This document shows positions 15,101-29,838 of a stretch of DNA of 64,000 bases, one piece after another. A program made the translations under genes and the position numbers. The DNA is taken from positions 1 through 64,000 of the forward strand of contig NZ_QGMZ01000027.1 of assembly GCF_003173335.1 (NCBI RefSeq), written 5' to 3'. The number at the start of each line of letters is the position of its first letter. The stretch's first letter is position 1. The notes under the pieces are model-generated. The model was not told the origin of the DNA and did not search any database. It saw only the letters and a list, made by a program, of their open reading frames with translations. The stretch is from Methanospirillum stamsii (GTDB taxonomy: Archaea; Halobacteriota; Methanomicrobia; Methanomicrobiales; Methanospirillaceae).

Positions 15101-15421
15101 TTAACTCCTCATCACCACATTATACCCGATTGCTCTGCGTAGCAGTCGTTCTACATATCCGCTCACTTCATCTCCTTTCCGGGGTGCCGGTATTGGAATA
15201 ATGACCGGGTGATAACAGCGTTCAACCTGTTCATAGAGACTTTTATCAAGATTTGCCAGAAAATCCTCCCGGATTGCGATAATACCGGTTTCTTCTTCAT
15301 GTAACAGAGACGAGAGAACCTGAGATGCTTCATAAGAATCTTCAGCCTCTAAAACATCAGAACCAGCAAGTCGAAACCCGGTCGCAGATTCCGGATCAGT
15401 GATGACGACAACCTTAAACAT
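15101..15421 (-). CDS. atpF: A-type ATP synthase subunit F, operon 1
   Basis: A 106-residue protein with the Rossmann-like start [19 protein letters not shown] and IIAIREDFL in the middle, both typical of subunit F. This subunit binds the central stalk next to D. It overlaps atpC by 8 nt at its start. Confidence 0.92.
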
Positions 15422-16463
15422 AGACCATCTCAGCCTCCATCTCCTCCGGTGAAATCAGGGCATTTTTACACCGGGCAATAATTCGCAGATTCATGATTTC
15501 AGTGTATTTTGCCCACAGAAACCCGATTACTACGGTGACTGAGAGAGGATCTCCGCGGTACAGGCGTACTGCATGCCGAATCATGTATTCATCAAGAAGA
15601 TGCTGATATGCAGAAATCTTAAGATTGTCACCTTCAGTGCTCCGAAGATCTTCCAGAAACCGGTATGGTGTCCCCTCAAGTGATTCAATAACTCCGGCAA
15701 CAGATCCCAGTTTAAGCATTACCCGGAGTTTTTTCAGGTTAAAAACCCTGCCTCCCTCCAGCAGGATACGTTCTCCATCATCAGGATCAATGTCATCTCT
15801 GACCATCATCAGAATCGATTTTAGATTGATGAGATCAATTTCCGTCTGAACAAGTTGCCTGATAATCTGTTCTTCAGTAGATTTCCCCTGCACAAGACCG
15901 ATTACCCGCTCATAATAGAACCTATCAAGGGCGTTTTCGAGAATAATAAGGTCTGACTTCTCGGTATATTCAGGAAATACTTCAGTAAGCGGAGCTGCAT
16001 AACTGACATCAAACGTTGCAAGAAGATCAATTACACTCCTGATATCTGGTTGCTTTAAGAGTTCTGATAAAAGAGCTTCATCGAATTCACCGGCAGGAAT
16101 AAGGTTTTCCCTGATCTGCCCTGATGGAACATAGATTCTCTTACCCCGCAGTATGGTTTTAAGATTATGAATATCCCACCTGGATGAAAAGATGGCAATA
16201 TAACGCTCACTTTTCTCTCCTTCCAAAAAACCCTTTATCTTCTGGATTGTCCGAACAAAATTTTGCCGGAGAGCCTCTTCTATCCCTGACAAACCTGGTT
16301 TTAAAACAAGTGCCCGTTCCAGATCTTCACGGTATGGGGTATCTTCAAGGGCTGTAATCAGGGAACTGATATCAGGTTTTAAAATCAGATTGCTCAGGCT
16401 GCCTTTGTCAAGTAATCGTGAATACATCCCTTTTACCCGTGCATTGACGTACCCGTTATCCAT
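15414..16463 (-). CDS. atpC: A-type ATP synthase subunit C, operon 1 (soluble form)
   Basis: A protein of 349 residues from ATG 16463, which follows GGGGGT. It begins MDNGYVNARVKGMYSRLLDK, the standard N-terminus of the archaeal C subunit, the funnel that connects the central stalk to the K ring. There is no membrane segment, unlike the paralogue in operon 2. It overlaps atpE by 8 nt. Confidence 0.93.
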   Translation of the reverse strand: MDNGYVNARVKGMYSRLLDKGSLSNLILKPDISSLITALEDTPYREDLERALVLKPGLSGIEEALRQNFVRTIQKIKGFLEGEKSERYIAIFSSRWDIHNLKTILRGKRIYVPSGQIRENLIPAGEFDEALLSELLKQPDIRSVIDLLATFDVSYAAPLTEVFPEYTEKSDLIILENALDRFYYERVIGLVQGKSTEEQIIRQLVQTEIDLINLKSILMMVRDDIDPDDGERILLEGGRVFNLKKLRVMLKLGSVAGVIESLEGTPYRFLEDLRSTEGDNLKISAYQHLLDEYMIRHAVRLYRGDPLSVTVVIGFLWAKYTEIMNLRIIARCKNALISPEEMEAEMVYV

Positions 16464-17084: not shown

Positions 17085-17303
17085 TTATTCAACCATTATG
17101 ATGATCATTGCGGCGACGACGAATCCTAAAATAACGAGCGTTTCAGGAATAGCCTCAAGAACTATGACTATACCTGCTGATTCAGGACGTTCTGCAACGG
17201 TTCCTGCTCCTGCTGCACCAATTTTTGACTGGGCAATACCAGTCGCAATTGCTCCTCCTGCAAAAGCAATTGCAGCGCCAATAGGGACTTCCCATCCTGT
17301 CAT
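17085..17303 (-). CDS. atpK: A-type ATP synthase rotor subunit K, operon 1 (single hairpin)
   Basis: A protein of 72 residues from ATG 17303, which follows GGAGGTTATC. It is one two-helix hairpin. Helix 2 holds the ion-binding carboxylate E54 in IPETLVILGFVVA, and helix 1 ends in ATGIAQSKIGAAG. The single hairpin with one carboxylate predicts the highest ion load per rotation for its ring. It differs strongly from the triple-hairpin K of operon 2. A likely promoter lies directly upstream (17334-17347). Confidence 0.94.
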   Translation of the reverse strand: MTGWEVPIGAAIAFAGGAIATGIAQSKIGAAGAGTVAERPESAGIVIVLEAIPETLVILGFVVAAMIIIMVE

Positions 17304-17333
17304 GATAACCTCCAACGATTACCTTATCCCCTG

Positions 17334-19989: not shown

Positions 19990-20841
19990 ATGTTTCGAAG
20001 AATACTTTTTCCCACTGATTTCTCTGATTATGCACGGAGAGTAATGGACTGTATCGCCGGGTTACCCGGAGTCGAAGAGGTTACTCTTCTTCATGTGAGT
20101 AGTGCCAGCAGCCCGGCATTGGTAAAAGGAGAACTTGTTTCCTCGGCACGTGAACGGATTGAATCAGACCGGTTATTCCTTTCGCAACTTGGGATTATGA
20201 AAACAAAGACTGAGGTTGTGGTATCGGATTCAGTAGCAGAAGCCATTGAGCAGGCAGCAACCAGAAATGATACCACTATTATTGTCATGGGAGCCAGAGG
20301 GAAAGGGTTAATCAAAGGGCTGCACCTAGGAAGTGTAACAAACAAGGTACTCCATATTTCAAAAAAGAATCTGCTCATCATGCGGGGATCAATTATTGAA
20401 CAACTCTCCGGGGAGAAATTTCAGAAATTCTGTCCCATGATATTTTCCCGGGTGTTAATCCCGGTTGATCTCACCAAAGAATCCTGGGATGCAGTCAAAA
20501 AAATTGCTCTTATTCCGGATGTTACTGAAATTATTGTAGGATTTGTTATCTCACGTGGAGAGACTGAACGGGAACTTGAACGACTCAGGAAAGAGTCAGA
20601 ACAGAAAATAATAAAGCAATGCGAACAGATCAAAACTAACGGAGCACAGATCAGATGGAGAATCCTTGAGGGAGACCTTGTCAGCAGGATTAATGAATAC
20701 GCAAGTGAGGCAGATGTCTCTCTGGTCTGCACAGCTCCAACAGAAAAAGGGTTTTTTGCAGAGATACTGCATGGAAGTTTTTCATGCGAACTAGCCAGGC
20801 TGGCCTCTCATCCGGTACTTGTAATCAGGCGCCAGAAATAA
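19990..20841 (+). CDS. Tandem universal stress protein (two UspA domains)
   Basis: A protein of 283 residues with two Usp domains. The first (1-133) starts MFRRILFPTDFSDYARRVMD and has the ATP-binding signature GARGKGLIKGLHLGS. The second (about 145-283) starts SRVLIPVDLTKESWDAVKK but lacks a clear GxxGxxxxxxxxxG signature, so only domain 1 is likely to bind nucleotide. The gene lies between the two ATP synthase operons, and its 3' end overlaps the 3' end of atpD2 by 17 nt in convergent orientation. Confidence 0.88.
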   Translation: MFRRILFPTDFSDYARRVMDCIAGLPGVEEVTLLHVSSASSPALVKGELVSSARERIESDRLFLSQLGIMKTKTEVVVSDSVAEAIEQAATRNDTTIIVMGARGKGLIKGLHLGSVTNKVLHISKKNLLIMRGSIIEQLSGEKFQKFCPMIFSRVLIPVDLTKESWDAVKKIALIPDVTEIIVGFVISRGETERELERLRKESEQKIIKQCEQIKTNGAQIRWRILEGDLVSRINEYASEADVSLVCTAPTEKGFFAEILHGSFSCELARLASHPVLVIRRQK

Positions 20842-21511
20842 CGGGTATTGCAGTTTCCTGACTCTTTTTCTCCATTATCTGTTTCATTCTTTTTCTTCGG
20901 AACAAATCTTCACGTTCACGCTCTTCAAGTCTGAACTCAATATACCGCATTGTTCCCTGGAGACGGGGAATGACCAGATGTTCAAGGGCATTTACCCGTC
21001 TTCTGGTCCGGTTCATCTCAAGGATGAGTCGGTCAGCTCTCCCCTGGAGAGATGCATATTCGAGGATCAATGAAAGCAGTTTTTCATATCTCTGGGATAC
21101 TTCATCGACCTGTCCGGATGTTCCAACCATGCTATATCCCCAATTTTGCCTGGAACAATCAGTGTGATCTTCACTTTTACGGCTAACTTCCGGAACTCTG
21201 ACACCCATAACCTGTGTGGAGGTAACGAAGATTTCAGGTATTTTCCTGGATGATGAAGCGATTTCAGAAAGGTGTACCCATCCTGTCATAACCCCGGCAA
21301 TTTTTAAATTTTCATATGCATGAGCCATCTGCTCCCTGATGTTTTCAGCCATTCTTTCCAGTTCAACAGAAAGTCGGCTGTGTTCAAGGACAAGAGCATC
21401 GAGTTTCTCCTGCAGAATGTCGCGGCCTTTCTGTGCTATGAGCTCTCTTCTCCGGAGCCGGAGTAGTTCTAGCCGCGTTGGTCTTACTCCACTAATTACG
21501 GCCCTTTGCAT
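20825..21511 (-). CDS. atpD: A-type ATP synthase subunit D, operon 2
   Basis: A protein of 228 residues from ATG 21511 ([20 protein letters not shown]), a start that overlaps the end of atpB2 by 16 nt; the longer open frame is inside atpB2. The C-terminal [19 protein letters not shown] is diagnostic for the D axle subunit. It is last in operon 2 and overlaps the stress protein gene by 17 nt. Confidence 0.93.
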
Positions 21512-22905
21512 TCTCCTCCCTCTACGCCATGATAATAAGAATCGATGTATTCCTTGCTGATTCTCTTTAGTTCTGATCTTGGAAGAAGAGAGAGGAGATC
21601 CCATGCAAGGTTCAGAGTATCTTCAAAAGATCTGTCTTCATATGATGCCTGACGAATGAAATCAGATTCATAACGGTCACAAAACCGAAGATAGACTTTA
21701 TCAAGAGGAGTAAGACCTTCTTCACCCATCACTGCAACCAGACTTTTCAGCCGAATGCCCCGTGCATATGCTGAATATAACTGATTTTTCACTTCAGCAT
21801 GATCTGCACGGGTCCGGCCCTCCCCGATACCTCCCTGCATAAGACGGGAAAGACAGGGCAGAACATCAACAGGTGGATAGATACCTTTCCGATGTAGTTC
21901 ACGGGAAAGAACAATCTGACCTTCGGTAATATACCCGGTCAGATCAGGTACCGGATGGGTGATGTCATCATCGGGCATGGTGAGAATGGGAATCTGAGTA
22001 ATCGATCCTTCTCTTCCCCGGATACGTCCGGCCCGTTCATAAAGAGATGCAAGGTCGGTGTAAATATAACCAGGATATCCCCTTCTACCCGGAACTTCCT
22101 CCCTTGCGGCGGCAATTTCCCGGAGAGCTTCACAATAATTTGTTAGATCGGTAAGCACAACAAGCACATGCATGCCCTTGTCAAAGGCAAGAAACTCTGC
22201 AGTGGTGAGAGCAAGTCTTGGGGTAATAATCCGTTCGATAGCTGGATCATCTGCAAGGTTTAAGAACAATACAGCCCGTTCGAGTGCCCCACTTTCTTCA
22301 AATTCCCGGATGAAAAACGCAGATTCCTCATAGGTGATACCCATCGCTGCAAAGACCACGGCAAACTTCTCTGCCTGTCCGGTTACCTTTGCCTGACGAG
22401 CAATTTGTGATGCAAGCAGATTGTGAGGAAGTCCTGCACCGGAAAAAATTGGGAGTTTCTGGCCCCGAACCAGCGTGTTCATCCCGTCTATTGAAGATAT
22501 TCCGGTTTCAATAGAGTTTCTTGGATGTTCACGTGCTGATGGATTGATAGGAGAACCATAAATATCCCGTATACATTCAGGAATAACCGGACCTCCTCCG
22601 TCAATTGGCTGTGCACTTCCATCAAAAGTCCTTCCCAGCATTTCAGCGGAGAGAGAAATCTTCATTGGCTCTCCCCTGAACCTGACCTTTGTCCCTTCCG
22701 TATCAAGATCACGGGTCCCCCGGAACACCTGAACCAATGCACGGGTCGTCGTTGTTTCAAGCACCTGACCTATTCTGGTTTCACCACCAGGAAGAGATAT
22801 TTCTGCAATCTCTCCATAGCCAATCCCCTCAACCCCCTCAATGACAATAAGGGGCCCGACCACCTTTGAGACTCCGGTATAAACCCGGGATGAGAGATCC
22901 ATCAA
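21496..22905 (-). CDS. atpB: A-type ATP synthase regulatory subunit B, operon 2
   Basis: A protein of 469 residues, collinear with the operon 1 copy over its full length ([62 protein letters not shown]). It is non-catalytic. It overlaps atpA2 by 4 nt. Many residues differ from the operon 1 copy, so the two are old paralogues and not a recent duplication. Confidence 0.95.
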
Positions 22906-24674
22906 AAAGCCCCCTTAAGGTTTTTCATCGATTCCATATCCCGGGCAATAGCCTGAAAGAGTTCATCCTCCTCTTCCGGAGAAGAAGAGCCCATCCGGGC
23001 AAAGAGTTCTATAAGTGAAAGAGTCCTGATATTAGATACGGTAACTCCGGAATCAAGGGCACGTTCAGCCCGTTCAAAGAATGAAAAGATAGATTTTAAC
23101 ATCCGGTATTGTTTCTTAGGCCCGGTATAGGTATCAAATTCATCAAAAGCATACTGCATCAGGTAACTTTCCCTGATTATCTCAGCCTTTAAGAGTAACA
23201 GACGATCTGATTCCGGCAGGGTCTCAGGACCGACCAGGCGGATAATCTCCTCAAGTTCATTCTCCCGCTGAAGGATTTCCATCATCTCCTGTATCATCCG
23301 GATAAAATCAGGCCCGACATGCTCTTCCCACCACTGACCAGCCATGTTCCCGTACAGTGAATAGGACATAAGCCAGTTAATCGCCGGAAAATGCCTTTGA
23401 TATGCAAGGTCTGCATCCAAAGCCCAGAACACCTTGACAATACGAAGCGTGTTCTGCGTAACCGGTTCAGAAAAGTCACCTCCCGGAGGAGATACCGCTC
23501 CGATGACAGAAATTGAACCCTCATGCCCGCCAGATCCCAGAAGTGAGACCCTTCCGGCCCGTTCATAAAAATCAGCAAGACGGGAACTCAGGTATGCAGG
23601 ATATCCTTCTTCACCTGGCATCTCCTCAAGTCTTCCTGATATCTCCCTCATGGCTTCTGCCCACCTTGAGGTTGAATCGGCCATCAGAGCCACATGATAA
23701 CCCATATCCCGGTAATATTCTGCAAGGGTAATCCCCGTATACACCGATGCTTCCCTTGCAGCAACCGGCATATTACTGGTATTTGCAATGAGTACCATGC
23801 GGCTGCTGAGAGCATGGCCGGTTCTTGGGTCTTTTAAGGTAGGGAATTGTTCAAGGACGTCTGCCATCTCGTTGCCCCGTTCACCACATCCAATGTATAT
23901 AATGATGTCAGCGTTCACCCACTTCGCCAGCTGCTGTTGGACAACAGTCTTCCCTGAACCAAATGGACCTGGAATTGCTGCAGTTCCTCCACGGGCAAGG
24001 GGAAAGAGGGTATCTATGATCCTCTGGCCGGTGATAAGAGGTTCAACAGGATCAAGACGTTCCCGTACCGGACGAGGACTTCTGACCGGCCAACGCTGAA
24101 TCATGGTAATCGGGGTCTTTTCTGATCCGGACATTATGACCGCAATAGTATCGGTGACCACGTATTCCCCTTTTTTTGCAAGAGACATGAGAGTTCCACT
24201 CATCCCTGGTGGAACCATGATGAAATGATTGACTGATACCGATTCACGGACACAGCCTAGCCTGTCACCTTCATGTACCTCGTCACCCTCCTTTGCCAAA
24301 GGATAAAACCGGTATTTTTTTGTCCGATCTAGGGCAGGTGCAGAAGAACCACGTTCAATCATATCCCCGGTACGACGCAGGATTTCTTCGAGGGGCCGCT
24401 GGATACCGTCATACATGGTACCAACAAGGCCTGGCCCGAGCTCTACTGAAAGAGGAAGATATGTTCTTATTACCGGCTCGCCTGGAACAAGGCCGGTAGT
24501 CTCTTCATAAACCTGTATGGTAGCACGGTCTCCCTCCAGAATAATAATTTCCCCAATAAGACCGGCTTTTCCTACTCTGACTGACTCATACATCCGGCTC
24601 CCGGCCATACCTTCCGCTTCAACAACCGGCCCGGTTACCCGGATAACTGTACCATCTCTGCTCTTACTATTCAT
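22902..24674 (-). CDS. atpA: A-type ATP synthase catalytic subunit A, operon 2
   Basis: The catalytic subunit with the P-loop GPFGSGKT in the normal archaeal form, then [25 protein letters not shown] and [13 protein letters not shown]. About 590 residues. The frame is open from 24737; ATG 24674 follows GAGGG at a good spacing and gives an N-terminus ([20 protein letters not shown]) close in length to the operon 1 protein. ATG 24719, 5 nt after the atpF2 stop, is the alternative. Confidence 0.94.
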
Positions 24675-24724
24675 CGCATCCCTCTTATCATCACCAACCA
24701 TCGTTTCGTTCTTCTTCATGGTCT

Positions 24725-24997
24725 TTATACTCCACAAGTATCCGGTCTTCTCATCTCATCCGGAATGACGGATACAACCGGTATCATCCGGGGGGATGTT
24801 CTCGCTGCATAAACACGATCCGGAATCAGATCGGCAACCGACTGACTGATTAGGATTATTCCGATATCCGGTTCCACCAGGCATTCTTCCAGTCGCTTTT
24901 TTGATTCTTCAGTGTCCTCACACACATACCCCTCATGAATTCCGCCCAGCAAAAACCCCATCACCATCCTTTGGGGGCCAAGAAGTACAACCTTCAT
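24725..24997 (-). CDS. atpF: A-type ATP synthase subunit F, operon 2
   Basis: A 90-residue protein starting MKVVLLGPQRMVMGFLLGGI with IGIILISQSVADLIP in the middle, as in subunit F. It is shorter than the 106-residue copy in operon 1. It overlaps atpC2 by 4 nt. Confidence 0.88.
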   Translation of the reverse strand: MKVVLLGPQRMVMGFLLGGIHEGYVCEDTEESKKRLEECLVEPDIGIILISQSVADLIPDRVYAARTSPRMIPVVSVIPDEMRRPDTCGV

Positions 24998-26187
24998 GCT
25001 TCACCACCTGTAAGGACCAGCATCCGGGTAATCATTTCTGCTGAAAACCCTTCTGATAATCCGGAGAGGATCACCCTGATATTTCGAAGCTCAAACTCTT
25101 TTGCAATGAGATACCAGAGCAGAGGCCCGCCGGTATGATAATAATCCAGTGAGAGGCGGGAGACAATATCAAGTTCCAGTTTGTCAAGTGCTAAATCAAA
25201 AGAAACCATGCTGTCCGGAGACGGATATTTCCGGATTAACGGTGTGAGAACTGGTTCAAACCTGGTGCCTGAAAGCTGCCTGACAATATCTGGAACGCTC
25301 ATCATCTCATTTAACTGGACCAGCCTCCATTGTGGAATTTCAAGGCCACCGGGGAGTAAACAGACAGGGGCAGAACCCGGATCCCTCCCGGTATGCTTGA
25401 ACCTGATAAGTGTTTTTACATTCTGAATATCTGCCAGAATTGAAAAAAAATCCCGGTATGGAGAGGCCAGGTAACTCGTAACCTTTGATGTCTGCCTGGA
25501 GATTTCATCATATCCCAGGCAATCCAGGGCATGTTCCAGGTAAAACAGTAAATGCTCTTTTTCATAAGCAGGAAGAGCATTCATAAGCGGTATGCCATAC
25601 CTTGTATCCTGCATTATCCGGACACATTCACTAACCGTCTGTGAATTTGAAACCTTTATTGCAAGGTCATACGTAAATCCGTCAGGCCAGAGCACCGGGT
25701 TTTCAGAAAATGATTTTATCTGATGCTGATGAACAAACCGGAGTATTCGTTTAATTTTTGCCAGTTCCTGAAAAAAGAGATAGGCATCAAAAAATTCCCA
25801 TGCATCCTGAGGAGATTCTGACCTCATTAAGGTGACCTCTTCATACCACAGAGCAAGGACTTCTTCTTCGACCTGATCCGAATTACATTCAGGTGGAATA
25901 TTCCGAAGATAACCAGCGGTTTTTAGCCGGTTTATGCAGTCAGGAAGTGAACCACTCTGCAAAAGCCCCATCACCTGTTCGTTTTCAATAAAAGGAACTC
26001 CCTTTGCCTTGATACGGGCAATTACCGGAGTGTATGAAGTAATAGAGAGAAGAACAGGAAAATAGCCGGCTGTACTCAGAATTGCTATGAGTAATAATGC
26101 AATAATAAGGACAACAATCGCCGTTGTCAAAGGGGTGAGATATGGCAGGCCTGCATCAAAAAGAGGTGATAGCATCTCATTAGTCAT
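24994..26187 (-). CDS. atpC: A-type ATP synthase subunit C with N-terminal membrane helix, operon 2
   Basis: A protein of 397 residues from ATG 26187, about 50 residues longer than the operon 1 copy. The extra N-terminus contains one strong hydrophobic helix at about residues 20-42 (LTTAIVVLIIALLLIAILST). After it the usual subunit C fold begins (SYTPVIARIKAKGVPF) and continues to the normal C-terminus (LRNIRVILSGLSEGFS). Archaeal C subunits are normally soluble, so this form should be anchored in the membrane, perhaps in the lumen of the K ring. It overlaps atpE2 by 8 nt. ATG codons upstream at 26226 and 26199 lie inside atpE2. Confidence 0.88.
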   Translation of the reverse strand: MTNEMLSPLFDAGLPYLTPLTTAIVVLIIALLLIAILSTAGYFPVLLSITSYTPVIARIKAKGVPFIENEQVMGLLQSGSLPDCINRLKTAGYLRNIPPECNSDQVEEEVLALWYEEVTLMRSESPQDAWEFFDAYLFFQELAKIKRILRFVHQHQIKSFSENPVLWPDGFTYDLAIKVSNSQTVSECVRIMQDTRYGIPLMNALPAYEKEHLLFYLEHALDCLGYDEISRQTSKVTSYLASPYRDFFSILADIQNVKTLIRFKHTGRDPGSAPVCLLPGGLEIPQWRLVQLNEMMSVPDIVRQLSGTRFEPVLTPLIRKYPSPDSMVSFDLALDKLELDIVSRLSLDYYHTGGPLLWYLIAKEFELRNIRVILSGLSEGFSAEMITRMLVLTGGEA

Positions 26188-26791
26188 CAGAGACACCATT
26201 TTCAAACAGGATTTTTGATACTGCAACGATCATGTCTCGTTTCATACGGGAAAACCGGGCTTCAACAGTATTATCAATCGTTACACGGTCTGTAACTCTT
26301 TCGCAGATAACGCCTCCGGCAGTCATAACCGGCTCATCAGAAAGGTGTATGGAATTCCCATCTTTCTGCATTGAATTGATTATCTCCTGAACAATTTTCC
26401 GGTCATCAGGATGTACAGATATGATATGTTCCTGGCCGCCCAGATTTACCATGCATTCTTCAATAAGATGTTTCAGAAGAGAGGGATATTCATTTTTTGT
26501 CCGAAGTGTCTGCAGGTACTTTTCTGTCTCTTTAAAGCACTGATTAATAAGATCCTCTTTAGACTCCCGGACTAGTTTTTTTGCTTCAATCCGGGTCCTG
26601 GACTGCTGACTGGCAATGTTTTGTCGAATCTCTCTGAAGCCTTCTGATAACCGGTGATTGTATGCAGCTTCTGCTCTCTGTTCAGCCAGGTTTCTGATAT
26701 TAGTTAGTTCACATGCTTCTTCTGCCCTGATTGACCGGACTTCTTCTTCTGCTTCTCTTTTTATCCGGTTTATGATTGCTTCGACAGTCAT
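26180..26791 (-). CDS. atpE: A-type ATP synthase subunit E, operon 2
   Basis: A protein of 203 residues: an N-terminal charged coiled coil (IKREAEEEVRSIRAEEACEL) and a globular C-terminal part with AGGVICERVTDRVTIDNTVE, matching the E subunit ending. It lies 26 nt after atpK2 and overlaps atpC2. Confidence 0.92.
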   Translation of the reverse strand: MTVEAIINRIKREAEEEVRSIRAEEACELTNIRNLAEQRAEAAYNHRLSEGFREIRQNIASQQSRTRIEAKKLVRESKEDLINQCFKETEKYLQTLRTKNEYPSLLKHLIEECMVNLGGQEHIISVHPDDRKIVQEIINSMQKDGNSIHLSDEPVMTAGGVICERVTDRVTIDNTVEARFSRMKRDMIVAVSKILFENGVSDD

Positions 26792-26817
26792 AGTACGCCA
26801 GTTTGTTATCCAATAAA

Positions 26818-27543
26818 TTATCCACTAAATAATCCAAGACCGAACAGTATCAAAATTGCAACCAATAGTCCGAATATTGCAAATGTCTCGGACATTGCTG
26901 CAAAAACAAGGCTTCTTCCGATTGCCCCCGGATTTCGTGCTGTAGCAGCAATTCCACTTGAACAGGTGATACCCTGACCAATAGCAGAAAAGCCGGCAAG
27001 ACCCACTGCAAGACCTGCACCAACAAGGCCGATTGCTATTGGCATCTCTACAGAGAAGTCCGATGACAATATTCCGGTCAGTGCCAGCATCAGAACTGCT
27101 ATCAACAGACCATAGATGGCCTGAGTCTCACAGACTGCCGCGAATACCACACCTCGCCCAAACATCTCAGGTTTTTCAGCAGTATTTGCCACCCCTGAAG
27201 CAGCAGCAATACCCTGGCCAATAGCAGAAAAGCCGGCAAGACCTACTGAAAGCCCTGCTGCTATTGCAACAATTCCGGCCGGAGTCGGGATATCTCCGGC
27301 AGTTCCTCCTAGAAATCCTCCGGCCTGCAGGATCAAAATCGCGATTAATAGACCATAGATAGCCTGGGTCTGCGGAACCGCAGTAAAGACAAGAGCCATC
27401 CCAAATTTCTCAGGACGTTCTGATATCACCCCTGAAGCTGCTGAACCAACAATACCAACCCCAATACCAGATCCAATTGCTGAACATCCCACAGCAATAC
27501 CCGCACCGATAGCCATCAGAACTGCACCTGTACCAATTGTCAT
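26818..27543 (-). CDS. atpK: A-type ATP synthase rotor subunit K with three fused hairpins, operon 2
   Basis: A protein of 241 residues made of three tandem copies of the two-helix hairpin, about 80 residues each. The carboxylate positions are Q58 (VPQTQAIYG), E139 (VCETQAIYG) and E219 (MSETFAIFG). Helix-1 Gln residues that help bind Na+ in related rings are present in hairpins 2 and 3 (Q110 and Q190, in FSAIGQG), while hairpin 1 has S25 there. So only two of three hairpins should carry an ion. Triple hairpins with one missing carboxylate are known from Methanocaldococcus and relatives. It overlaps atpI2 by 4 nt and has no promoter of its own. Confidence 0.93.
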   Translation of the reverse strand: MTIGTGAVLMAIGAGIAVGCSAIGSGIGVGIVGSAASGVISERPEKFGMALVFTAVPQTQAIYGLLIAILILQAGGFLGGTAGDIPTPAGIVAIAAGLSVGLAGFSAIGQGIAAASGVANTAEKPEMFGRGVVFAAVCETQAIYGLLIAVLMLALTGILSSDFSVEMPIAIGLVGAGLAVGLAGFSAIGQGITCSSGIAATARNPGAIGRSLVFAAMSETFAIFGLLVAILILFGLGLFSG

Positions 27544-29522
27544 GAATAATCCTCATTATTTACGTGTGTATAGATACGATTTTCACGGAATGGAATAAAT
27601 TCCCTTCCTCCTCCGGAATAAAACCTGCCAAAAAATTCAATGTAATGCAGACGAAGAGCATGAATAACACTTCCAAGAGTCTGAATTGCAAGGTTAAAGA
27701 ACTGTCCGGCAATACAGAAGATAATCGCCGGTACAATCATAAATGGGTGAACAGATGCTATCATTTCAGATAAAATATTAATTGTCATCGCTATTCCTCC
27801 GGTAGCAAGAGCGAGAGCTAAGATCCTGACATAGGAAAGCCAGTCTCCCAGGAATCCGGTAAGACTGAAAAAGCCCATCGGGCCCTTTTTAAGAAATAAC
27901 ACTGCAAGCCCGATGAGTCCCCCACCAATAGCAAGATTGGTAATTATAGATGGAAATGTTGTCCAGCCAAAAAACTGAATCAACAGAACTGCTGCTGAAG
28001 GCTGGAGAATAAACCAGATAATGTTCTCCTGGATAGCAGCACTGTACAGCCGATTCCGGATATTTTCCCAAAGTCCAATGATAATACCAAGGTTGAGGTG
28101 GATTGTACCAATGATAAGGGCTATCTGGAATAATAAGATTGGAGAATTAAGCGGTTCAATCAGCACAAATGGTGGCTGAATATTGAAAAACCGAGGAAGC
28201 AGATCTCCAAACCAGCCCCCCTGAATTGTCCCAAGGATAATATCTGCAACACCAGAACAGAGGAGGATATAACTCATATCCCGAAACGATGCATCGGTTC
28301 TTCCAGGTCCACGGTATAAGAGCCACCCGACAAGGGCAATAATAAGTCCATATCCGGCATCACCCAGCATCATCCCGAAAAAGAGCAGATAAGCGGGTGC
28401 AAAAAATGGAGTAGGATCTATCTCATCGTACCTGGGTCGGGAAAATGTCGTTGTAAGGAGTTCAAATGGTGCCAGCCAGGAGGGGTTATCATACCTGACC
28501 GGAACATCATCATGCGGGTCAGCCGGTTCCGTAATTACAAAGCACTCCTCCCCTGTGGCCGACCGGATGAGAGACTTCAGTTTTTCCTCATCCCTTTGTC
28601 GTACCCATCCCCGGAGATACGAAACATCTCTGCTTGTCCCAAATTTCCGGTTAATATCAATCCTTTCCCGCCGGAGGATGAGCTCTTCACGGTATGCCTG
28701 AAGTAGTGATAGATAGGTATGGGCATAATCAGTCAGTTGTTCCTGTAGTTTCTGTTCTTTTGTAGCATATTCAGAAAGTAGCGCCAGTTCCTGCTTTTGC
28801 ATATCATCTGGCAGGCCGGAGAAACTTTCAGGAAAAACCAGCTGATTAAACCACGAGGCATGAATCAGATCAGATAATGCATCCCGGTGATTATTGGTAG
28901 AGACACAAAAAATCAGGATTATACCATCTTTTTTTTCTGAATACAGGGAAATTTCATCAGTTCCTGCCTCTGCAAGCCATCTATCCGGGAGGGAAGAATG
29001 TTCCTCTTTTACATACCCGGCAATGAAATGTGTAAAAGGAGCAGGTTTCAGGTAAGATAGGGAAATTCCGGTTCCCTTCAGACGTTCAAGGCTTGCAATA
29101 TATCCTTCACATGATGTATAGTGATCCCGGTTTTTTTTCAGATCTTCCTGGATTTTTAAAACTTCCTCTGCCCGATCTAATTGAGAAAGGATATCAGAAA
29201 ACAGCCCATCGTGTGAACCTGAATAACCAGGAACATACTGTTGTTCCTGCCTGGAGAAAATTGATGTGAGAAGATTACCGGTTTTTTGAGCATATGGCTC
29301 CAGGATTTCAAGAACCCGATCAATCCTGAACTGAATGTTAAGTATTTTTTCGAGATCTTCTTTTGGAATTACCGGTACCTGAAAAGTTACATCACCGACA
29401 GGAACTGAACGAAGGTCTAGTATTTCCAGTTCTCCCTGTTTGTGAAGAGCAGTGGTGACCTCTAAAAGCCACCTCTGGTGGACCCCGATGAGGACATTAC
29501 TCATTCGAGCTGGATAAAACAT
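27540..29522 (-). CDS. atpI: A-type ATP synthase membrane subunit I (a), operon 2
   Basis: A protein of 660 residues with a soluble N-terminal half and about eight C-terminal membrane helices. PTPFFAPAYLLFFGMMLGDA, LSYVRILALALATGG (with the conserved Arg) and ALRLHYIEFFGRFYSGGG match subunit I. It must pair with the triple-hairpin K encoded next to it. It overlaps atpH2 by 26 nt. Confidence 0.94.
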   Translation of the reverse strand: MFYPARMSNVLIGVHQRWLLEVTTALHKQGELEILDLRSVPVGDVTFQVPVIPKEDLEKILNIQFRIDRVLEILEPYAQKTGNLLTSIFSRQEQQYVPGYSGSHDGLFSDILSQLDRAEEVLKIQEDLKKNRDHYTSCEGYIASLERLKGTGISLSYLKPAPFTHFIAGYVKEEHSSLPDRWLAEAGTDEISLYSEKKDGIILIFCVSTNNHRDALSDLIHASWFNQLVFPESFSGLPDDMQKQELALLSEYATKEQKLQEQLTDYAHTYLSLLQAYREELILRRERIDINRKFGTSRDVSYLRGWVRQRDEEKLKSLIRSATGEECFVITEPADPHDDVPVRYDNPSWLAPFELLTTTFSRPRYDEIDPTPFFAPAYLLFFGMMLGDAGYGLIIALVGWLLYRGPGRTDASFRDMSYILLCSGVADIILGTIQGGWFGDLLPRFFNIQPPFVLIEPLNSPILLFQIALIIGTIHLNLGIIIGLWENIRNRLYSAAIQENIIWFILQPSAAVLLIQFFGWTTFPSIITNLAIGGGLIGLAVLFLKKGPMGFFSLTGFLGDWLSYVRILALALATGGIAMTINILSEMIASVHPFMIVPAIIFCIAGQFFNLAIQTLGSVIHALRLHYIEFFGRFYSGGGREFIPFRENRIYTHVNNEDYS

Positions 29523-29838
29523 CCTCTTCTCCGGTTACAATACGGACAACCTGAAGAACTGCTGCATTGACATTCTTCTCTCCCTTGGACCGCAGGTTTG
29601 ATACTTCATTCTCCGCTTCCGACATCACGAAGAGAAGTTCCTTCCGTAATATTTCTTCTTCTTTCTCCCGTTCACTTCGAAGCCGGGTCTCGGCATCTGA
29701 AAGACGAACGGAAAATCGTTCTTCTCCTTCGCGCTTTGCTTCTTCCATCGCGAGTTTCATGCGATGTCGTGCAGTTTCGATCAGGTTGACTGCTTCTTTT
29801 TCAGCTTCTTTAATCTGATCAATCTCACGAAGATCCAT
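29497..29838 (-). CDS. atpH: A-type ATP synthase subunit H, operon 2
   Basis: A protein of 113 residues, one coiled coil (IDQIKEAEKEAVNLIETARH at the start, RSKGEKNVNAAVLQVVRIV near the end). It is the peripheral stalk partner of E and the first recognised gene of operon 2. Confidence 0.9.
   Translation of the reverse strand: MDLREIDQIKEAEKEAVNLIETARHRMKLAMEEAKREGEERFSVRLSDAETRLRSEREKEEEILRKELLFVMSEAENEVSNLRSKGEKNVNAAVLQVVRIVTGEEDVLSSSNE

Follow-up and report, generated by a model that had tools for sequence, protein, structure and literature searches.

Subunit C of A-type ATP synthases is treated as a soluble cap sitting on the rotor ring. In the 64,000-nucleotide stretch of Methanospirillum stamsii DNA analyzed here (the window), one subunit C gene instead begins with a hydrophobic extension ahead of the domain expected for such a cap. 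This raises the questions of whether the extension is genuinely translated, whether it spans the membrane, and where such a helix could lie in the rotor.

The gene in question, atpC2, occupies positions 24994..26187 of the minus strand and encodes a protein of 397 amino acids, an A-type ATP synthase central-stalk subunit C (AC39/subunit d family) with an N-terminal transmembrane (TM) extension. The ATG is found at 26185-26187 and the stop codon at 24994-24996, exactly as initially annotated. The ATG overlaps the stop codon of atpE2 (ATGACTAA) with GGTG immediately upstream, and the atpC2 stop codon in turn overlaps the ATG of atpF2. In keeping with an A/V-type subunit C, the gene lies inside an operon with the order H-I-K-E-C-F-A-B-D (operon 2; 20825..29838, minus strand), as determined by Pfam and NCBIfam matches. 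The PF01992 match covers residues 56-388 and scores 178.7 bits against a curated Pfam cut-off of 29. Within the same operon, the longest atpD2 frame (20825-21604) begins inside atpB2 with an overlap of ~109 bases, and its true start is probably further in. Between both ATPase operons, a plus-strand gene of 283 amino acids with a universal-stress-type look (two repeats) is found at 19990-20841.

To assign the ion type of the two operons we used the rotor subunit K, in which a polar Na+ ligand marks the Na+-type site and an aliphatic residue the H+-type site (Mulkidjanian et al. 2008, PMC2359735). The atpK2 gene (26818..27543, minus strand) encodes a triple-hairpin rotor subunit with the sites PQTQ, CETQ and SETF. 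PQTQ has no carboxylate, leaving two carboxylates for three hairpins. K2 scores 315 bits against the triple-hairpin model NF004913, above its cut-off, which was also passed by one control genome. K2 carries the polar Gln next to Thr, with F replacing Q in the last hairpin, whereas the single-hairpin K1 of operon 1 (atpK1; 17085..17315, minus strand) has the H+-type site PETLVILGF, with PETLVI at the corresponding position. On these residues the K ring of operon 2 is classified as Na+-type, and AtpC2 is assigned as subunit C (the subunit d homologue) of a Na+-type archaeal A1AO ATP synthase.

The genome contains three subunit C genes and only AtpC2 carries the extension; the other two (C11:39910 and C20:15432, the latter AtpC1) are ordinary. 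The comparison gene atpC1 in operon 1 (15414..16463, minus strand; ATG at 16463) has an ordinary soluble start with no TM segment. AtpC1 and the third AtpC belong to the same PF01992 family and occur in the same gene order as AtpC2, but have no helix and accompany a single-hairpin, H+-type K. The initial annotation had described about 50 extra residues with a hydrophobic helix in AtpC2 and none in AtpC1, and this description is borne out: PF01992 begins at residue 56 in AtpC2 versus residue 10 in AtpC1, and the 19-residue Kyte-Doolittle peak ahead of the AtpC2 domain reaches 2.99, while AtpC1 has only a few residues ahead of its domain and shows no peak of this kind. The ~50-residue extension consists of three parts. 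The N-terminal tail (residues 1-18; 26134..26187, minus strand) is acidic, with 0 K/R and 2 D/E, and is predicted to lie outside. It is followed by a single uncharged membrane helix at about residues 19-39 (26071..26133, minus strand) and a conserved junction (residues 41-65, GYF..LL.I.SY....ARIKAKGVP; 25993..26067, minus strand) predicted to lie at the membrane surface.

An AlphaFold2 model, built as a single chain from a four-sequence alignment, reached a mean pLDDT of 79.6. In the model, residues 19-39 form a helix that is separated by a break at the conserved G41 from a second one at 42-61, which leads into the AC39 fold. Confidence is moderate for the TM helix (pLDDT about 60-69) and low at residues 1-18 and 41-50 (42 at 41-50). 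The remainder forms a three-domain helical funnel which matched 1r5z at Z 24.9 over 312 residues (Foldseek, VIA-align). Subunit C of the Thermus thermophilus V/A-ATPase (1r5z, 6ly9, 8ywt) has the same three-domain AC39 funnel fold (Z 24-25) but lacks the N-terminal extension, beginning at the equivalent of C2 residue 48-50; model residues 48-392 are matched. Eukaryotic V-ATPase subunit d, a homologue of C, matches from residue 41-45 (Z about 24). Thus none of the matches to these solved structures extends to the TM helix, and a sequence search of the PDB returned no TM-bearing subunit C.

If the extension were a peculiarity of one gene model, it should not recur in relatives. The initial annotation had proposed a search of other Methanomicrobiales, and searching 199 genomes of the order with AtpC2 yielded 55 C2-type genes (E 1.8e-15 or better), all 55 of which carry the helix. 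Each of the 55 aligns from query residue 28 or earlier, while ordinary C subunits in the same genomes align from residue 42 or later. Two genomes of the window's own genus (G163 and G167) have no C2-type gene, and operon 2 is not universal even within the genus. In an alignment of 30 C2 homologues, the helix occupies the same position in every protein and is followed by the same junction. Additionally, codons 1-52 have a dN/dS of 0.04-0.08 in the closest pairs, indicating that the extension is under purifying selection. Absence from the operon 2 homologues, named at the outset as an outcome that would count against the helix, was not what we found; the helix is conserved instead.

A mis-called start, with translation beginning after the helix, had also been raised as an objection and would make the extension an artefact. 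Some homologues do contain in-frame TTG, GTG or ATG codons. Such internal starts show no conservation, codons 8-75 of two homologues contain none, and by sequence a usable downstream start is absent. Together with the purifying selection, the conservation of the extension and the overlap of the atpC2 start with the atpE2 stop behind GGTG, this makes an artefact very improbable, and we reject a mis-called start as far as sequence can. A cleaved signal peptide is also unlikely. The positive n-region is absent, and cleavage would put the C domain outside.

The charges flanking the helix are sharply asymmetric. Across the 30 homologues, 5 K/R versus 102 D/E precede the helix, and 91 K/R versus 32 D/E occur in the 20 residues after it. 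The helix itself has no charged residues in columns 22-37 and one at column 21. Because of this positive-inside asymmetry, the helix should be oriented N-out/C-in, with the acidic tail outside and the C domain inside. Residues 40-66 constitute the most conserved stretch of the protein, with a mean column entropy of 1.34 bits versus 2.29 for the rest. In contrast, the helix (2.30 bits) is as variable as the rest of the protein, and no conserved helix face was detected in the aligned C2 proteins (moment p about 0.5). Because the helix is variable and without a conserved face, while residues 40-66 are the most conserved, we read it as lipid-embedded or loosely packed and held at a precise exit point. 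The missing face gives no indication of a specific contact with K, and favors a lipid-embedded anchor or plug rather than a specific lock.

The helix is also not confined to operon 2 of Methanospirillum, as initially supposed. AtpC2 residues 20-391 align with positions 19-389 of NCBIfam NF002267 (PRK01198.1-3; V-type ATP synthase subunit C, 390 aa) with no shift, scoring 137 bits, below the equivalog cut-off of 488. AtpC2 is therefore a distant relative and not a member of this TM-bearing AtpC family of the class I methanogen type, sharing its length and N-terminal helix. When the first 65 residues were isolated, the N-terminus of one homologue (L062) matched profile positions 17-57 at E 1.1e-4 and that of another (L064) weakly at E 0.019; AtpC2's own N-terminus gave no match. 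By these alignments, the first 48 positions of NF002267 hold a homologous hydrophobic helix (profile about 17-48). The 488-bit cut-off was passed by exactly one of 14 control genomes and by none of the 148 genomes of the window's phylum (best 329). By exclusion, the passing control must be Methanocaldococcus jannaschii, because the window's phylum fails, which we take to exclude Haloferax and Methanosarcina, and the two bacteria are unlikely. The AtpC of M. jannaschii would then be a member of NF002267. The A1AO ATPase of this organism was reportedly purified and imaged by electron microscopy by Coskun and colleagues in 2004. The helix therefore probably exists in an already-studied enzyme as well as in a curated family. 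A hydrophobic helix also seems to open the AtpC of Thermococcales, Methanococcales and Methanobacteriales. The literature searched, which lacks most subscription journals, yielded no account of a membrane helix in AtpC; as far as we found, the helix is an old lineage trait that is catalogued yet undescribed.

To define how the helix relates to the rotor ring, operons were annotated around 80 subunit C genes, with [EQ]TQ or ETF taken as the Na+-type K motif and PETLVI, PETIVIFG and similar as H+-type. Every helix-bearing operon with a readable K (53 of 53) has a Na+-type K, and none of the 20 operons with an H+-type K has the helix. The converse does not hold. Five operons (L136-L139 and L140) combine a Na+-type K with a helix-less C, so the helix is not required for such rings and an absolute rule that Na+-type K implies a TM-bearing C is rejected. 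In four of them (L136-L139; f16 g51), a two-hairpin K with PGTQ/VETF sites stands beside a C that lacks the TM segment and is 334 aa long (314 aa in L139, at a contig end).

A dependence on triple-hairpin K, as the initial annotation had envisaged, did not hold up. K in helix-bearing operons has 1, 2, 3, 4 or 6 hairpins (counts in L048, L062, L069 and L145, where contig ends cut the K genes, are minima), and one-hairpin K accompanies the helix in L113-L115, indicating that hairpin fusion is not needed. On a tree of the C core built with the extension left out, hairpin number changes 13 times and the helix about twice. The same tree limits what can be read from the association with ion type: because it offers only 1-2 independent pairs of changes, the link between helix and K type may mostly be shared ancestry. 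Thus, the helix appears to be an old trait of Na+-type A-ATPases that is independent of K hairpin number and absent from the H+-type paralogues examined.

Where, then, would the helix lie? Subunit C turns with the K ring, and subunit I stands beside that ring. The short GYF...ARVxAxGNP junction, which is highly conserved, links the N-out/C-in helix straight to the helix that opens the funnel-shaped C domain, and a helix rigidly joined to C in this way, if outside the ring, would strike the stator on every turn. Because C rotates against subunit I and the short rigid link leaves no room outside, we infer that the helix probably threads the lumen of the K ring and serves there to anchor or plug the rotor. 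In that position it would hold C on the ring along the axis of rotation and help to fill or seal the lumen, with the acidic tail emerging on the outer face. The lumen was also the placement first proposed, and it stands as the most plausible one; the accompanying suggestion that the helix locks rotor parts together is one of several possible roles, and the helix has no conserved face.

The AtpC2 helix would take the place held in eukaryotic V-ATPases by helices of Voa1/Ac45/AP1, AP2/PRR and subunit c''. Middle helices are present in plant, yeast and mammalian c-rings (PMC10003446), the c'' N-helix has been considered a possible plug with d reaching into the pore (PMC4838861), and subunit d is located on the c-ring (PMC10352029). 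The ring-lumen helix beneath d is the proposed analogue. The eukaryotic helices belong to other proteins, whereas the AtpC2 helix is part of the C/d homologue itself; the likeness is put forward as an analogy only. We regard as an even call the broader proposal that an entire class of Na+-type archaeal ATP synthases has a membrane-integral rotor cap (C/d) with a helix occupying the ring axis, a one-protein prokaryotic counterpart of the eukaryotic lumenal helices that would render rotor and cap inseparable.

The main rival to a lumen anchor is a purely assembly-related tether. Here the helix would act as a reverse signal-anchor that brings C early to the membrane and nucleates the K ring; it would still end in or near the lumen, with its value in assembly and not in torque or sealing. 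A generic helix, in which hydrophobicity is kept and residues and faces are not, fits such a tether, and the atpC2 frame comes directly after those of atpK and atpE, with the genes of the operon packed tightly together. Eukaryotic Voa1/Ac45 is likewise listed under Vo assembly (PMC8269383). However, the most conserved stretch is the junction beside the C domain, pointing to a geometry that is fixed once the complex is complete, and the paralogue C1 presumably assembles in the same cell with no helix at all. We therefore consider a role confined to assembly possible and clearly less probable than the lumen anchor. The reading that the helix is an evolutionary leftover of the Na+-type lineage, doing little today other than weak anchoring, is more doubtful still. 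The two changes needed on the tree and the existence of two Na+-type lineages without the helix fit a relic, but the low dN/dS of the extension and its retention in every C2 gene of the order do not.

If C is membrane-threaded in many methanogens, as a lumen anchor would have it, the central stalk would be tethered on the rotation axis. Such tethering would have consequences for how ring and stalk exchange torque, for what occupies the ring lumen (lipid or protein) and for how rings of fused 3- to 6-hairpin subunits are put together, and it would bear on where the lumenal helices of eukaryotic V-ATPase came from. These possibilities are directly testable in Methanospirillum hungatei, which has one TM-bearing and two TM-less versions of C in one species; the cluster with the TM-bearing C is present in strain JF1 (G154). 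Three A-ATPase clusters have been described in JF1 with their gene order, called highly unusual and with ion use left open, and the account of the clusters in that report does not mention the helix (Gunsalus et al. 2016, PMC4704411).

Additional K architectures were observed among the annotated operons. Six-hairpin K proteins of about 480 aa are frequent among the C2 operons of Methanomicrobiales (25 operons in L036-L074 whose K is full-length; for example, K2 of L060 at about 6738) and carry five carboxylates, because hairpin 1 has Q for E. Four-hairpin K was found in L066, L111 and L119. Lastly, the helix-less operon L140 (6663-7619; G207:C1:75000-89000) has two K genes. One encodes a triple-hairpin K of 234 aa with PQTQ at each of its three sites and no carboxylate at any of them, the other a 76-aa single-hairpin K with PETQ; the pair suggests a rotor of mixed composition in which carboxylate-free subunits act as spacers.
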